In this document: positions 1,027 to 12,820 of the stretch, one piece after another | Position numbering within the stretch: the stretch's first letter is position 1 | How the letters are laid out: every line of letters starts with the position of its first letter | Assembly (NCBI GenBank): GCA_003153415.1 | Contig: PLYQ01000044.1 | Location: 1-32,888, forward strand | Direction of reading: 5' to 3' | From: Rhodospirillales bacterium | Lineage (GTDB): Bacteria; Pseudomonadota; Alphaproteobacteria; Reyranellales; Reyranellaceae | DNA length: 32,888 nucleotides | Translations under genes and position numbers: made by a program | Notes under the pieces: model-generated | What the model was told of the DNA's origin: nothing | Databases searched by the model: none | What the model saw: the letters and a program-made list of their open reading frames with translations, nothing else

Positions 1027-1476
1027 ATGGCCAAGTTCGACAGAGACAACAACGGCAAGTTCCAGAAAGGCAATGCCGCCGGCCCTGGCCGTCCGCTCGG
1101 CAGCCGCAACGCGACCAACCGCCTGCTCGACCAGCTTGCCGCCGAGAGCGCCGAGGGTATCCTGCGCAAGCAGATCGAGATCGCGGGCGAGGGCGATCCG
1201 CGCGCCGCCGACCAGGTGCTGAAGCGCGCCTGGACGATGCCCCGGGGCCGGCCGATCGAGCTCGACCTGCCGGCGATCGAGGAACCCGCCGACCTGGTGC
1301 GCGCCCACGCCGTGGTCGTGGCGGCAATGGCTGCGCACACCATCACGCCGGAGGAGGCGGCCTCGGTCAGCGCCGTGCTGGATGCCCAGCGCCGGGCCTT
1401 CGAGGTGGTCGACCTCGCCCAACGCGTCGAGCAGCTCGAGGCGCGGGTGCATCGCTACAAGGCCGACCTGCGGTGA
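1027..1476 (+). CDS. DUF5681-like small basic protein
   Basis: This 149-residue protein starts at ATG 1027 behind GGAGAC. Residues about 6-30 read like the DUF5681 motif (NGKFQKGNAAGPGRPLGSRN), a basic glycine-rich segment often found in small phage-like or mobile-element proteins of proteobacteria. The remainder is helical and charged, and the last 30 residues (DLAQRVEQLEARVHRYKADL) look like a short coiled coil. The function of the family is not known. A small dyad (CGGTT-TATTT-AACCG, 986-1000) lies in the leader. The stop overlaps the next start (GTGA), so the two genes are probably translated together. A DNA-packaging or terminase-associated role would be speculation. Confidence 0.7.
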   Translation: MAKFDRDNNGKFQKGNAAGPGRPLGSRNATNRLLDQLAAESAEGILRKQIEIAGEGDPRAADQVLKRAWTMPRGRPIELDLPAIEEPADLVRAHAVVVAAMAAHTITPEEAASVSAVLDAQRRAFEVVDLAQRVEQLEARVHRYKADLR

Positions 1477-1933
1477 GCGCCCTGCGGCGGCGCGTGCTGG
1501 CGCTCGACCGGCAAGTGCGCTGGCTCGAGACCGAGGGCGTGCTGATCAATATCGAGGCGATGATCAAGACCCTGGAGATAAAGCAGGAGATCGCCGATCG
1601 CCTCGCGACCGACCCCGAGGTCGCGGCGAAGTGGAAAGAGGCGGGCTGGGGGGCAGTCTGCCGCCGCCCCGCGTGAAGCCGAGGCCGGCGCCTTTGCCGC
1701 CTCCACCTCCATCACCGCCCCCGCCCCCGCCGCCTGCGGCGGCACCGCCGCCGCCCGCGCCGACACCCCGGCCGCCGCCCGAGCCGCCGGTGCCGACCTG
1801 GCAACCCTACGATCCGTCCGAGCACATGCAGATCCGGCCAGTCCGCTGGCGTCTGCGCGACGCCACGGACTATTTCGATGACGACGACGACACGCCGGAG
1901 GACGAAGACTATGACCCGTTCGCCGATCCCTAG
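1473..1933 (+). CDS. Proline-rich protein with acidic tail; frame broken at a G6 run
   Basis: The gene starts at GTG 1473, overlapping the previous stop. The first frame gives MSALRRRVLALDRQVRWLE and a helical segment with a likely coiled coil, then hits TGA at 1674-1676 after 67 residues. A -1 shift inside the G6 run at 1648-1653 joins it smoothly to a second frame. That frame has SLPPPRVKPRPAPLPPP, a stretch of about 50 residues dominated by proline and alanine, then WQPYDPSEHMQIRPVRWRLR and the acidic end DDDDDTPEDEDYDPFADP, stopping at TAG 1931-1933. The joined product would be about 153 residues. The break could be a sequencing or assembly slip, a real mutation, phase variation, or ribosomal slippage; no canonical X-XXY-YYZ heptamer is present in frame. 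No function is recognised. The layout suggests a membrane- or complex-spanning linker protein, which is inference. Confidence 0.55.
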
Positions 1934-7820: not shown

Positions 7821-9335
7821 TCAGGCTTCGTTGCGGCCGAGCCGCATGTCGGGATCGAACGGATAAAGCGGCCGCTTGATCTTGGTGTATTTGAACAGCT
7901 TGAGGTCCGACGCCGTGCAGCCGTCGCCGTCGCACATCACGATGTGCTTGGCGATCGGCTCGAAGCCGGCGCGGAAATGTTGGCGCGACTTGATCAGCAC
8001 GTACTTCTTGCGCCTTGGATCGATGCCGCAGTGGGTGAAGACGCCGAGATCGTAGGGCTCTGCGCGTTTCTCGGAGACCACGATCAGCATCTTGCCCGCG
8101 TCGAGCACGGCGGTGCGTCCCATGCGCACCGTGGTGCCCGTGGCCATCGGTCCGGTGACGGTGAACTGGCCGTCGGTGATGGCCTTCACCCTGCCGGTGA
8201 TCTTGAGCGGCTGGCCCTTCAGCCCCATGGCCGGCATGTCGACCTTGCCGCCGAGCTGCAGCGTCACTTCGGCGCCGACACCCGCCTTGATCATCTGCTC
8301 TACGCAGGCCGGGTCGCAGATCGGGCCGGCGACGGCGTCGTCGAGGCCCTGCTTGATGGCTTCTTCGATCACGCTCATGACGTCCTGCGTGCCGCCCGAG
8401 GCAGTGTTGTCGCCGTGGTCGGCCATCACCACCGGTCCCCCACCCGATGAATGGGCGTTCAGCGACTTGGCGCGCGCCACCTGCACGGAGAGCAGCTCGG
8501 GATGGAACAGGAAGCCTTCGCGCTTTTCCCAGGCGGTATCGAGGATCCGGTTGAGCAGCACTTCGCCGTCGGCCGTACGCTTGTCGCAAACGATGACCGA
8601 CGACAGCGCGAGATGGGGAATGTCGGCCTGGGGGAAGCCGCCGAACACCGAGGCGTTCAACACCTGGCCGGTGTCTTCGGCCTGGTTGGCCATGGCCATC
8701 AGGGTCTTCATCGGCTCGCGAGAGGGTGTGTGGACCAGCGAGCTGCTCATGATCGGACGGTTGCCCCACACCATCCTGGGCTCGATCTCGCCCGCCAACG
8801 TGCGCATCAGCGTACGGCCGGCGCGGCGCGCGGTGTCGGCCATGTCGATGTGCGGATAAGTGCGGTAGCCGGTGATGATGGTGGCGCCCTCGATCATGGC
8901 GTCGGTCATCTGGGTGTGGAAATCGAGCGCCACGGCGATCGGCACGTCAGGCGCGATCCTGCGGATGCGATTGAGCAGTTCACCTTCGCCGTCGTCGAAC
9001 TGTTCGGCGACCATGGCGCCGTGCAGCGCCAGCAACACGGCGTCACAGCCCTTCTTGATCTCCTCGACGATCGCCGTCGTCATCTGCTCGTAGGCGGCCT
9101 TGGTGACCGGGCCCGACGGATTGGCCGATGCCGCCATCGGCAGGGTGAATTCAGCGCCCGCCTTGCGCGCCACCTCGATGAAGCCGCCGAGCGAGGTGTT
9201 GGTGCCCTCGAACTCCGTGATGGCGGCCGGACCGCTCAAGGCGCCGGCGCGGGCGAAGGAGTCGATGGGGGTGGGAAGGGGCGAGAACGTGTTCGTCTCG
9301 TGCATCATCATTGCGACTACGAACTTTTTCGCCAA
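7821..9335 (-). CDS. M81 family metallopeptidase (MlrC / microcystinase C family)
   Basis: This 504-residue protein has the MlrC N-terminal domain (DUF1485) starting with MMMHETNTFSPLPTP, then LLALHGAM, ALDFHTQMT and ITGYRTYPHIDMADTARRA (zinc-site region), and the MlrC C-terminal domain from about residue 300 with VVMADHGDNTASGGTQD. MlrC in sphingomonads cleaves linearised microcystin fragments, but most homologues sit with amidohydrolases in soil alphaproteobacteria and have unknown substrates. The start is TTG 9335, with GGGAGAG a few bases upstream. It is the first gene of the pair with the D-aminoacylase. The 343-bp leader region contains a candidate small RNA on the opposite strand. Confidence 0.9.
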   Translation of the reverse strand: MAKKFVVAMMMHETNTFSPLPTPIDSFARAGALSGPAAITEFEGTNTSLGGFIEVARKAGAEFTLPMAASANPSGPVTKAAYEQMTTAIVEEIKKGCDAVLLALHGAMVAEQFDDGEGELLNRIRRIAPDVPIAVALDFHTQMTDAMIEGATIITGYRTYPHIDMADTARRAGRTLMRTLAGEIEPRMVWGNRPIMSSSLVHTPSREPMKTLMAMANQAEDTGQVLNASVFGGFPQADIPHLALSSVIVCDKRTADGEVLLNRILDTAWEKREGFLFHPELLSVQVARAKSLNAHSSGGGPVVMADHGDNTASGGTQDVMSVIEEAIKQGLDDAVAGPICDPACVEQMIKAGVGAEVTLQLGGKVDMPAMGLKGQPLKITGRVKAITDGQFTVTGPMATGTTVRMGRTAVLDAGKMLIVVSEKRAEPYDLGVFTHCGIDPRRKKYVLIKSRQHFRAGFEPIAKHIVMCDGDGCTASDLKLFKYTKIKRPLYPFDPDMRLGRNEA

Positions 9336-9518
9336 GACACTCTCCCGATCTCGTTAAACCCTTGAGTAATCTATCGAAAGGCAGCCAACCTGCGACGACA
9401 CCAGCTTTGCGCGTTATGCAGACCTGCTTCGCAGGAATCTTGTGCGTTGCAGAAAAGCCACACCTATTTCCCGAACCAACGGGCGTTAACCCTGTGAAAA
9501 GAAGGGTTCTTTTGCCTC

Positions 9519-9547
9519 TTGCATTTCCTTCGCACTTGCACCATTCT
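9519..9547 (+). promoter_or_regulatory. Candidate promoter of the small RNA
   Basis: TTGCAT (9519-9524) and CATTCT (9542-9547) are 17 bp apart. This places a start site close to 9551-9554, exactly where the structured RNA region begins. The -10 element is imperfect. An alternative -35, TTGCCT at 9512, would give too long a spacer. Confidence 0.4.
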
Positions 9548-9550
9548 TAG

Positions 9551-9652
9551 CGGGCAGCAAACGCCACCTCGGTGGCCGCATTGTTTGCTGTATGCCCGTC
9601 TTGGGCGTTTCCTCCCTAAACTCGGGCCGTGCTTGTCACGGCCCCTTTTTTT
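9551..9652 (+). ncRNA. Candidate small RNA with an exposed CCUCCC
   Basis: About 102 nt in the only gap longer than 300 bp. The 5' half is one long stem-loop: CGGGC (9551-9555) with GCCCG (9594-9598), AGCAAAC (9556-9562) with GTTTGCT (9583-9589), and an inner GCCAC-CTCG-GTGGC hairpin (9563-9576). A linker with TTTCCTCCCTAAACT (9608-9622) is predicted single-stranded and contains CCUCCC, complementary to Shine-Dalgarno sequences. The 3' end is a strong terminator. Both flanking genes lie on the other strand, so no protein gene explains a plus-strand terminator here. Alphaproteobacterial sRNAs with exposed CCUCC-type anti-SD motifs are known; I cannot assign this one to a family. The remaining DNA (9336-9518) holds a small CCTGC-TTC-GCAGG hairpin and AACCCT/AGGGTT arms but no gene. 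Confidence 0.55.
9624..9652 (+). terminator. Strong Rho-independent terminator
   Basis: GGGCCGTG (9624-9631), loop CTTGT and CACGGCCC (9637-9644) form a perfect 8-bp stem followed by C and seven Ts (9646-9652). Orientation is plus strand only; reading the other way the hairpin has no U-tract. Confidence 0.85.
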
Positions 9653-9678
9653 GGGCGCTCTTCAACCTGTGACGAAGG

Positions 9679-10572
9679 TTATTCGGCTGCCAGCGGCCGC
9701 GGCAGCAGCATTTCCAGGGCGTTCTCGCCGATCTGCCCGAGCAATCCCGTCATCAACTGCTCCACGCCAGCCAGGGCCGGCAGCTCTTCGTGCCGCGCTT
9801 CGTCCATGTAGAGCGAGCGGTTTATTTCGATCTGCAAAGCGTGGCGGCCGAGACTTGGCCGGCCATAGCGCTGGGTGGTGAAGCCGCCGGCGTAGGGCTG
9901 GTTACGCTGTACGCGCAGGCCCTGGGCGACGAGCCACCGTTCGGCGCACTCGACCAGCGCGATAGCACAGGACTCGCCGTGATTGTCGCCCAGCACGATA
10001 TCGACACGCCGCTCGCGCGAGCCGATGCCCGAGGCCGACGACGGCATGGAATGGGCGTCGATCAGCAGGGCGGCGCCAAACAGGCTGTAGGTCTGCTCGA
10101 CCAGCATCGACAGCGCCACGTGGTAGGGCCGCCAGCAGGTTTCGAGCCGCTGCTCGATCTCGTCGGCCGGAACGCGGCCGCGATAGATCGCCTCGCCGCT
10201 GGCGGCGACCCGGGGGATCATGCCGAGGCCGGCGGCGACCCGGGTGGTGCGGTGGTTGAGCGGCCGCGGCAGGGGGCCTTCGAACATGGCGGGATCGAGT
10301 TCGTAGGGCTCGCGGTTGGCGTCGACATAGGAGCGCGGGAAGCGGGCGGCCAGGAACGGCATGCCGAGCGTCGGCGCCGCCGCGAAAAGCTGGTCGACAA
10401 AGGCATCTTCAGCGCGGCGCAATGCCGCCAGCGGCACGGCCGCTTGGGCCAGGAACTCGGCGGGGTAGAGTGCGCCGCTGTGTGGCGAGGCCACGACCAC
10501 CGGGATGGTCTGGCGCGCCGGCAGTCGACAGTCCAAAGCGCCATGATCGGTGGGCATCGGCGAGGAATCCAT
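9679..10572 (-). CDS. N-formylglutamate amidohydrolase family protein
   Basis: This 297-residue protein has family landmarks VVVASPHSGALYP (metal/substrate loop, about 24-36), SYVDANREPYELDPAMF, LLIDAHSMPS and LQIEINRSLYMDE near the C-terminus. N-formylglutamate amidohydrolase (HutG type 2, FGase) hydrolyses N-formyl-L-glutamate to glutamate and formate in one branch of histidine breakdown. No other hut genes are near, so a different N-formyl or amide substrate is possible. The start is ATG 10572, because GAGG sits five bases upstream; an in-frame ATG at 10557 is the alternative and the longer frame from 10665 has no support. It is transcribed away from the tRNA. Confidence 0.85.
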   Translation of the reverse strand: MDSSPMPTDHGALDCRLPARQTIPVVVASPHSGALYPAEFLAQAAVPLAALRRAEDAFVDQLFAAAPTLGMPFLAARFPRSYVDANREPYELDPAMFEGPLPRPLNHRTTRVAAGLGMIPRVAASGEAIYRGRVPADEIEQRLETCWRPYHVALSMLVEQTYSLFGAALLIDAHSMPSSASGIGSRERRVDIVLGDNHGESCAIALVECAERWLVAQGLRVQRNQPYAGGFTTQRYGRPSLGRHALQIEINRSLYMDEARHEELPALAGVEQLMTGLLGQIGENALEMLLPRPLAAE

Positions 10573-10677
10573 CCAAGCCTCATAGCGCGTGGATCGGAGC
10601 CCGTCACGCGCCGTACTCTTGCCAAGTTGGGGGGGCCGATGTAGACGACCGCACCCTCGGTTCAAGGGACCGGCGAT

Positions 10678-10752
10678 GGGCGCGTAGCTCAGCGGTAGAG
10701 CACTGTCTTGACATGGCAGGGGTCACAGGTTCAATCCCTGTCGCGCCCACCA
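10678..10752 (+). tRNA. tRNA-Val (anticodon GAC)
   Basis: The cloverleaf is complete. The acceptor stem is GGGCGCG with CGCGCCC, the D stem GCTC/GAGC, and the anticodon stem CTGTC/GGCAG around loop TTGACAT, giving anticodon GAC (reads GUC, valine). The T arm is ACAGG-TTCAATC-CCTGT. The discriminator A is followed by an encoded CCA (10750-10752). The nadE start is only 19 bases downstream, so a shared transcript is likely. Confidence 0.97.
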
Positions 10753-10771: not shown

Positions 10772-12820
10772 TTGATCTCCAATTTCTTCTCGCTCTACTC
10801 CCACGACTTCGTGCGCGTGGCGTGCTGCGTCCCGCGCACCCGGGTGGCCGATGCGGGCTACAACCTCGCCGAGACGCTGCGTCTGGCTGGAGAAGGCGAC
10901 AAGGCCCGGACTGCCATCATGGTCTTTCCGGAGTTGGGCCTCTCGTCCTACGCGATCGAGGATCTGCTGCTGCAGGACGCACTGCTCGATCAGGTCGAGC
11001 AATCGATCGCCAAGGTCGTCGAGGCATCGACGAAGCTCTTCCCCGTCCTGATCGTCGGCGCGCCGCTGCGGGTAAGCGGTCGGCTCTACAACACCGCCGT
11101 CGTGATCCATCGCGGGGCGATCCTGGGCGTGGTCCCCAAGACCTACCTGCCCAACTACCGCGAGTTCTACGAAAAGCGACACTTCGTGTCGGGCGCCAAC
11201 GTGATCGAGAGCAGCATCAAACTTGCCGGCCAGGACGTGCCGTTCGGCACCTACATGCTGTTCCGCTCGAACGGTTCGATCGTCGTCACCTTCCATGTCG
11301 AGATCTGCGAGGACATCTGGGTGCCGGTGCCGCCCTCGAGCCACGCCGCTCTCGCGGGCGCCGAGGTGCTGGTCAACCTGTCGGCGAGCAATATCACGAT
11401 CGGCAAGGCCGACGCGCGGCGCCTGCTGTGCGGCAGCCAGTCGGCGCGCGGTATCGCGGCCTACGCCTATTCGGCGTCGGGCCCGGGCGAATCGACGACC
11501 GATCTGGCCTGGGACGGCCATGCCGCGATCTACGAATGCGGCGACCAGCTGGTCGAGTCGGCGCGCTTCGAGAAGGACTCGACGATCGTCCAGGCCGATG
11601 TCGATCTCGGCCGCATCCGCCAGGAGCGCCTGCGCAACAACGGCTTTGCCGATTGCGCCGCGCAGGAGGCCGACAAGGTCGCGCGCTTCCGCAAGGTGGC
11701 CTTCGCGCTCGAAGCGCCCAAGGAGAAGGTCGCCCTTGATCGCGCCGTCGAACGCTTTCCCTACGTGCCGTCCGATCCTGCCAAGCTGCGCGACAATTGC
11801 TACGAGGCCTACAACATCCAGATCCAGGGGCTGGCGCAGCGCCTGCAGTCGAGTCGGACGGAGAACGCCGTCATTGGCGTCTCGGGCGGCCTCGATTCGA
11901 CGCATGCGCTGATCGTCGCCTGCCGCTCGATGGACCTCCTGGGCAAGAGCCGCAAGAACGTGCTGGCCTACACCATGCCGGGCTTCGGCACGTCGGACAA
12001 AACCCACGCCAATGCCTGGCGCCTGATGAAGGCTCTGGGTGTCACGGCGGCGGAGATCGACATCCGCCCGACGGCCAAGCAGATGCTGGGCGACATCGGC
12101 CATCCTTTCGCCAAGGGCGAGAAGGTCTACGACGTCACTTTCGAGAACGTGCAGGCGGGCCTCCGCACCGATTATCTGTTCCGCCTGGCCAACCAGCATC
12201 GCGGCATGGTGGTCGGCACCGGCGATCTGTCGGAGCTCGGGCTCGGCTGGTGCACCTACGGCGTCGGCGATCACATGTCGCACTACAATCCCAACGGCTC
12301 GGTCTCCAAGACGCTGATCCAGCACCTGATCCGCTTCGTGGCGGCCTCCGGCGACGTCGACAAGGAGACGGCCGCGATCCTGCACGACATCCTCGACACG
12401 GAAATCTCGCCGGAACTGATCCCGGCCGGCGCGGGCGGCGTCGTCCAGTCGACCGAACAGTCGGTCGGCCCCTACGCGCTGCAGGATTTCAATCTCTACT
12501 ATCTGACGCGGCTGGGCTTCCGGCCCTCGAAGATCGCCTTTCTCGCCTGGCATGCCTGGCACGACGTCGAGAAGGGCGCTTGGCCCGCCAACCTGCCGAA
12601 GGGGACGGAGCGCGCCTACACGCTGGCGGAGATCCGCAAGTGGCTCGAGCTTTTCCTGCGCCGCTTCTTTGCCAACCAGTTCAAGCGTTCGGCGCTGCCC
12701 AATGGGCCCAAGATTTCGTCGGGCGGCTCGCTGTCGCCGCGCGGCGACTGGCGGGCGCCATCGGACGGCAGTCCCGATGTATGGTTGGCCGAACTCGCCG
12801 AGCACGTTCCGGAACGATAG
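10772..12820 (+). CDS. nadE: Glutamine-dependent NAD(+) synthetase
   Basis: This 682-residue two-domain enzyme makes NAD from deamido-NAD, ATP and glutamine. The N-terminal nitrilase-type glutaminase carries the triad Glu54 (VFPELGLSSY), Lys123 (VVPKTYLPNY) and Cys179 (EICEDIW). The C-terminal synthetase has the pyrophosphate loop GVSGGLDST and later TGDLSELGLGW. Length and layout match the long actinobacterial/alphaproteobacterial form. The start is TTG 10772, since the following residues (ISNFFSLYSHDFVRVA) match the family N-terminus and no closer ATG would keep the catalytic Glu. No strong ribosome site is visible before it. It begins 19 bases after tRNA-Val, so its mRNA 5' end may be produced by tRNA processing. 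Confidence 0.95.
   Translation: MISNFFSLYSHDFVRVACCVPRTRVADAGYNLAETLRLAGEGDKARTAIMVFPELGLSSYAIEDLLLQDALLDQVEQSIAKVVEASTKLFPVLIVGAPLRVSGRLYNTAVVIHRGAILGVVPKTYLPNYREFYEKRHFVSGANVIESSIKLAGQDVPFGTYMLFRSNGSIVVTFHVEICEDIWVPVPPSSHAALAGAEVLVNLSASNITIGKADARRLLCGSQSARGIAAYAYSASGPGESTTDLAWDGHAAIYECGDQLVESARFEKDSTIVQADVDLGRIRQERLRNNGFADCAAQEADKVARFRKVAFALEAPKEKVALDRAVERFPYVPSDPAKLRDNCYEAYNIQIQGLAQRLQSSRTENAVIGVSGGLDSTHALIVACRSMDLLGKSRKNVLAYTMPGFGTSDKTHANAWRLMKALGVTAAEIDIRPTAKQMLGDIGHPFAKGEKVYDVTFENVQAGLRTDYLFRLANQHRGMVVGTGDLSELGLGWCTYGVGDHMSHYNPNGSVSKTLIQHLIRFVAASGDVDKETAAILHDILDTEISPELIPAGAGGVVQSTEQSVGPYALQDFNLYYLTRLGFRPSKIAFLAWHAWHDVEKGAWPANLPKGTERAYTLAEIRKWLELFLRRFFANQFKRSALPNGPKISSGGSLSPRGDWRAPSDGSPDVWLAELAEHVPER

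Follow-up and report, generated by a model that had tools for sequence, protein, structure and literature searches.

We report a predicted small RNA gene in Reyranella (Alphaproteobacteria) which we take, with a probability of about 0.93, to be the Reyranella orthologue of the trans-acting sRNA alphaR8 (MmgR / suhB / SisA), situated in its usual place beside the gene for N-formylglutamate amidohydrolase (FGase) and acting by pairing of a 10-mer. Under the name suhB element, the family has been on record since 2005; it was then proposed to be a noncoding RNA that has a promoter and a terminator of its own and possibly an antisense role (PMC1273637). In alphaR8 RNAs, a weak hairpin is followed by an internal single-stranded UUUCCUCCCU and then by a terminator, and most species have one copy adjoining an FGase gene (PMC12559287). 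Since the candidate belongs to Rfam family RF00519, which is widespread in the class, it is a known kind of sRNA. With it, a clear alphaR8 orthologue is on record in a genus for which a literature search on Reyranella and small RNAs gave no bacterial sRNA study by title or start of the abstract; the phylogeny of the family by Lagares (2016) or the MmgR paper of 2017 may already cover the genus. Modest new points are a well-supported extra 5' hairpin and a promoter which seemingly lacks the usual storage-polymer (PhaR) switch.

The window, i.e. the whole stretch of 32,888 nucleotides that was analysed, holds a promoter, three hairpins and a linker at 9518-9652 on the plus strand, flanked by an MlrC and an FGase gene which both lie on the minus strand. 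The features of the locus are the following.

7821..9335, minus strand: MlrC / M81 metallopeptidase gene (PF07364, PF07171), on the other side of the RNA
9518..9547, plus strand: promoter recognised by its conservation in the genus, CTTG(C/A)A as -35 and CATT.T as -10 with 17-base spacing
9519..9524 and 9542..9547, plus strand: -35-like TTGCAT and -10-like CATTCT of the window, 17 bases between them
9529..9541, plus strand: conserved TTCGCA-NN-TGCAC element of the spacer, directly adjoining the -10 and a candidate operator
9550..9652, plus strand: predicted sRNA transcript of about 100 nt, start placed from the -10 and end from the terminator
9554..9591, plus strand: 5' hairpin SL1 of 14 pairs, interrupted by one internal bulge and situated for the most part upstream of the Rfam model; arms in the fold 9554-9562 with 9583-9591 and 9563-9567 with 9572-9576
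9587..9659, plus strand: match to Rfam RF00519, suhB / MmgR (alphaR8), 60.3 bits
9594..9606, plus strand: short hairpin SL2 with a GCCC-GGGC core, from the Rfam model and the consensus fold
9608..9617, plus strand: single-stranded 10-mer UUUCCUCCCU, anti-Shine-Dalgarno, unpaired in the predicted fold
9624..9652, plus strand: intrinsic terminator, 8 pairs (9624-9631 with 9637-9644) and seven Ts (9646-9652)
9679..10665, minus strand: FGase, N-formylglutamate amidohydrolase (PF05013, 247.8 bits, Pfam), convergent neighbour

Family membership, structure, conservation, locus and the presence of hfq were each established by computation. Upon comparison of the whole window with Rfam, the RF00519 match covers model positions 1-77 of 77 and its score exceeds the gathering score of 41 (E 3.3e-10). 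It is one of two gathering-level matches in the whole window, the other being a tRNA; this tRNA gene (10678-10749, plus strand) lies between the FGase gene and a gene for glutamine-dependent NAD+ synthase (10772-12820; CN_hydrolase and NAD_synthase domains). The marks of alphaR8 RNAs are all found at the locus, namely a score above gathering, the single-stranded UUUCCUCCCU after a weak hairpin and a Rho-independent terminator, and likewise the typical, not obligatory, FGase neighbour. The host genome, which is 88% complete, contains one RF00519 copy and an hfq gene (113 bits). Two other families were considered and rejected: SorY (RF02651) reached 21.2 bits versus a gathering score of 111, and asX2 stayed far below its gathering score. 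The unit as a whole is beyond chance, as seen from the Rfam E-value together with the stability of the fold: the 102-nt unit (9551-9652) folds at -45.4 kcal/mol versus a shuffled mean of -31.4 (z -4.4), and 0 of 200 shuffles were as stable. The terminator count by itself is unremarkable, because a scan of 9300-9900 gave two sites, both on the plus strand, versus 1.0 expected.

A preliminary description had put forward an sRNA of about 100 nt on the plus strand, equipped with a promoter and a terminator of its own, a proposal which is supported by the Rfam match and by the conservation of unit and promoter. It had correctly recognised the -35/-10 pair with 17-base spacing, the long stem-loop near the predicted start, a CCUCC-type anti-Shine-Dalgarno linker, which reads TTTCCTCCCT, the perfect 8-bp terminator with seven Ts and the minus-strand orientation of both flanking genes. 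The family had been left unnamed and an Rfam search suggested, which gives suhB/MmgR. A check for covariance and conservation in homologous loci had been suggested as well; the unit proved to be conserved there, and the stem carries compensatory changes.

Within the genus, the family model matched in 32 of 36 other genomes (44 of 61 genomes searched in all). RF00519 was not matched in genomes G009, G026, G027 and G034, all of at least 320 contigs, one of them said to be 98% complete. Hairpin arms and the 10-mer UUUCCUCCCU are identical in all 33 model-found loci, i.e. those of the 32 genomes and the window. Among the 26 of these loci with long flanks, FGase is convergent and downstream of the RNA in every case and MlrC is on the other side in 25; in the remaining one (L010) the contig starts too near. 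A pattern scan gave 56 stretches, many of them bearing the label Reyranella or Enhydrobacter aerosaccus. Genus stretches found by pattern number 55 (L059-L113) and partly overlap the model-searched genomes; they contain FGase in 51 and MlrC in 53 cases, and the four stretches without FGase (L075, L089, L103, L108) end just after the RNA. Near the loci of the order's sister family (L002 and L114, both from a single 19,080-base contig), FGase and MlrC were not found.

In an even sample of the class, 62 of 104 genomes matched. Places above the family cut-off numbered 67, with two Reyranella places left out and the sister-family locus L002 added; 58 of them passed filters for the 10-mer TTTCCTCCC followed by T or G, for a T-run and for 170 bases of upstream sequence, and 9 were dropped. 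FGase lies near 30 of the 58 places and is convergent in all 30, a count in which distant FGase genes would be missed because the protein of the window served as query and the flanks were short. Some Reyranella genomes have a second, more divergent alphaR8 copy with the same 10-mer (L040, L044, L049, L051, L052); upstream of these copies YGCRNNYGCR was not found, and by eye they are without the GCAAAC hairpin. One genome of the class sample (G068; L140, L161) has three tandem alphaR8 copies spaced by about 230 to 290 bases, and a PhaR-like core lies upstream of every copy.

The promoter is conserved together with the RNA. All 56 distinct genus rows agree in CTTG at 9518-9521, TTCGCA at 9529-9534, T9537 and T9547, whereas a comparison region at 9464-9486 has 0.03 to 1.06 bits per column. 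GCAC/TCATT at 9538-9545 was required in row picking and its invariance is not evidence. A scan with consensus sequences gave no promoter site above threshold, each hexamer having three of six positions of the E. coli consensus; these weak hexamers are still credible because they are conserved in the genus. A heat-shock (RpoH) reading of the CTTGAA-like -35 was considered as one possibility.

The 5' hairpin SL1 extends upstream of the Rfam model, and its status was assessed by covariation in an alignment (A1) of 55 rows, 46 of them distinct, with 26 named pairs. Rows were picked by the exact SL2-plus-10-mer core and the string GCAAACG, those from the pattern scan also by the outer arms. Invariance of the SL2 core, the 10-mer and the outer arms is thus no evidence, since they were used for row picking; the inner stem of SL1 was left free. 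All 26 pairs are kept in every row, and SL1 is paired in 100% of cells of the 46 distinct rows. Double changes affect 6 of the 26 pairs and amount to 51 cells versus a mean of 17.0 in shuffles that ignore the relatedness of rows (0 of 500 as high), and no double-change cells occur when partners are slid by 1-3 columns. Four of the 14 SL1 pairs show double changes, one of these in the single row L002, and three pairs covary strongly; in the terminator two pairs show them, in 3 and 1 rows. One of five measures, the number of further pair types, went in the opposite direction: it was 9, whereas the shuffles averaged 10.9. In the inner stem, columns 15-26 read CG or UA (one UG), columns 16-25 CG or UA and columns 17-24 AU or GC. 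Among the 34 rows of L001-L038 (33 Reyranella rows and L002 of the sister family) this amounts to 18 CG and 16 UA, 27 CG and 7 UA, and 21 AU and 13 GC, respectively. None of the rows breaks a pair at these three varying positions, although they comprise five different inner stems and 12 stem-loop variants. Without pairing at the RNA level it would be difficult to account for five stems in which every pair is kept, and this points to SL1 as a hairpin of the RNA. The compensatory changes indicate that the conserved RNA extends past the Rfam model into the 5' hairpin.

These changes bear on a shorter form of the RNA. If the mature molecule were only the Rfam part, some 66 nt from 9587, an internal start or processing would remove most of the 5' hairpin, which would then be a DNA palindrome or a processing signal. 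We regard this as unlikely. The Rfam model does begin at 9587, and MmgR of Sinorhizobium meliloti is described as 77 nt long (PMC7143759), but the compensatory changes keep the pairing and not the sequence, and the hairpin is preceded by the conserved promoter. Moreover, other families fold just before the body too. In the class sample, the 61 bases before the body have a mean z of -1.0 versus -0.31 for a control piece further upstream, and z falls below -1.5 at 23 of 58 places versus 8 of 58 in the control. The 5' hairpin therefore occurs in part of the alphaR8 family and is neither universal nor an invention of Reyranella. A switch between SL1 and SL2, in which GGGC would pair with GCCC, was rejected as not conserved: the outer 5' bases vary in L007, L020, L096 and L002.

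For the RNA of about 100 nt we propose the following mode of action, in which Hfq dependence, repression upstream of start codons and a metabolic role would carry over from Caulobacter and Sinorhizobium. RNA polymerase probably starts near 9550-9554, judging from the position of the -10, and would stop at 9652, releasing an RNA with three hairpins. The long 5' hairpin probably shields the 5' end, and the short SL2 and the terminator would hold the 10-mer UUUCCUCCCU single-stranded between them. Hfq usually binds the U-tail of the terminator. Most likely, the 10-mer pairs with Hfq's aid just upstream of start codons, at or near the Shine-Dalgarno sites of mRNAs, so that translation would be repressed. 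Such repression may tune carbon and storage metabolism; Reyranella carries phasins (14 loci in five genomes). In Caulobacter, a TonB-receptor reporter is repressed by SisA, the 10-mer of which pairs with it upstream of the start codon; mutation of the 10-mer abolishes repression of the CCNA_03574 reporter and the matching mutation of the mRNA leader restores it, in an assay done in E. coli with Caulobacter Hfq (PMC12559287). Sinorhizobium MmgR limits the accumulation of polyhydroxybutyrate, and its direct mRNA targets were not known as of 2020 (PMC7143759).

It is quite improbable that the RNA has a sponge sRNA such as CrfA, instead of mRNAs, as its main pairing partner. The Caulobacter sponge CrfA pairs with the same 10-mer and titrates SisA with help from Hfq, but it thereby counteracts an mRNA-repressing sRNA, and mRNA targeting is therefore still the base activity (PMC12559287). 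Finally, there is practically no chance that the locus holds no RNA gene and that hairpin and T-run simply terminate the FGase or MlrC gene or form a structure at its 3' end. The FGase stop codon does lie 26 bases beyond the T-run, but the T-run belongs to the plus strand and the two genes to the minus strand. The scan of 9300-9900 was without a minus-strand terminator, in line with the preliminary description, which had held the terminator to be of no use to either flanking gene. The unit in its entirety corresponds to an sRNA family of Rfam, and this family is also found at the 28 of 58 class places where the search did not find FGase.

Concerning the control of the alphaR8 gene, PhaR (AniA) represses mmgR in S. 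meliloti and binds its promoter, the motif having the core YGCRNYGCR (PMC12542648). This core is present in 38 of 59 class upstreams (shuffled mean 4.7, maximum 11 in 200 shuffles); n is 59 here versus 58 in the folding count, as less upstream sequence was required. The class-wide counts suggest that PhaR control of alphaR8 is common in Alphaproteobacteria. Reyranella would be a testable exception to this control: the core was found in 1 of 52 distinct genus upstreams (shuffles 1.4), and the upstream sequence of the window has none, contrary to what S. meliloti had led us to expect. PhaR itself seems to be present in the genome under study, where three PHB_acc_N matches exceed the cut-off, two of which are truncated at contig ends. 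Upstream of one phasin locus of this genome (L120; ORF 1456-1896, minus strand), at a distance of about 110 bases, a full PhaR motif occupies 2009-2029; at the other phasin locus (L124) no full motif was found. Among the 14 phasin loci of five Reyranella genomes, the full motif or TGCAnTGCA is present in 4 (L119-L122) and absent in 10, so that a PhaR site at Reyranella phasins is present but not general.

In place of the PhaR-like core, TTCGCAnnTGCA abuts the -10 of the Reyranella alphaR8 promoters. All 52 distinct genus upstreams contain TTCGCRNNYGCR (0.1 in shuffles), but the rows of the genus are related and this counts as one inheritance, not as 52 events. It also occurs in 4 of 59 class upstreams (shuffles 0.2), namely L002, L148 (two sites), L152 and L178; the nearest site lies 61 to 80 bases before the 10-mer in these four and 79 in the window. 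These four loci are from four other families, and by eye the nearest site adjoins a -10-like element, as in Reyranella. The strict form of the spacer element has a single site in the genome under study, at this promoter, and 7 sites in five genomes, 5 of them at the sRNA and 2 others in genome G022. The element was not called a PhaR site, as its gap is 2 bases versus 1 in PhaR sites. A text search of the literature gave no fitting published name for the palindrome TTCGCAnnTGCGAA; CceR and PckR are no more than guesses in this respect.

We tentatively suggest, at somewhat less than even odds, that Reyranella alphaR8 was freed from PhaR, the polyhydroxybutyrate sensor with boxes at alphaR8 promoters in much of the class, and came under another regulator which reads TTCGCAnnTGCA between -35 and -10, whereas PhaR was retained, with a canonical box at a phasin gene of this genome. 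Since an element of this kind recurs upstream of alphaR8 in L002, L148, L152 and L178, TTCGCAnnTGCA would, if the suggestion is true, provide the sRNA with a second control input that has been used repeatedly.

Compared with known systems, the RNA shares by alignment a UCC-containing linker and a terminator with SorY (RF02651), but its score is below gathering and it is no member of that family. Caulobacter crescentus SisA-D belong to the same family and have the same 10-mer, and sisA lies downstream of an FGase gene (PMC12559287), a neighbourhood found in most alphaR8 species according to the same source and also here. C. crescentus has four copies, whereas one was found in the Reyranella genome (88% complete). 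The leader of SisA is shorter than the 55 nt or so which are predicted to precede the 10-mer in Reyranella, because the CrfA-paired residues G33-C45 cover the 10-mer. With S. meliloti MmgR, the Reyranella RNA has in common the full-length RF00519 match, UUUCCUCCCU, a short hairpin before it, a terminator after it and a promoter of its own. The promoter of S. meliloti mmgR contains a PhaR motif and binds PhaR (PMC12542648), whereas the Reyranella promoter is without the PhaR core. MmgR measures 77 nt in all (PMC7143759), in contrast to about 100 nt predicted for the Reyranella RNA, the 5' part of which seems longer than in published relatives and contains a long covarying hairpin mostly outside the Rfam model.
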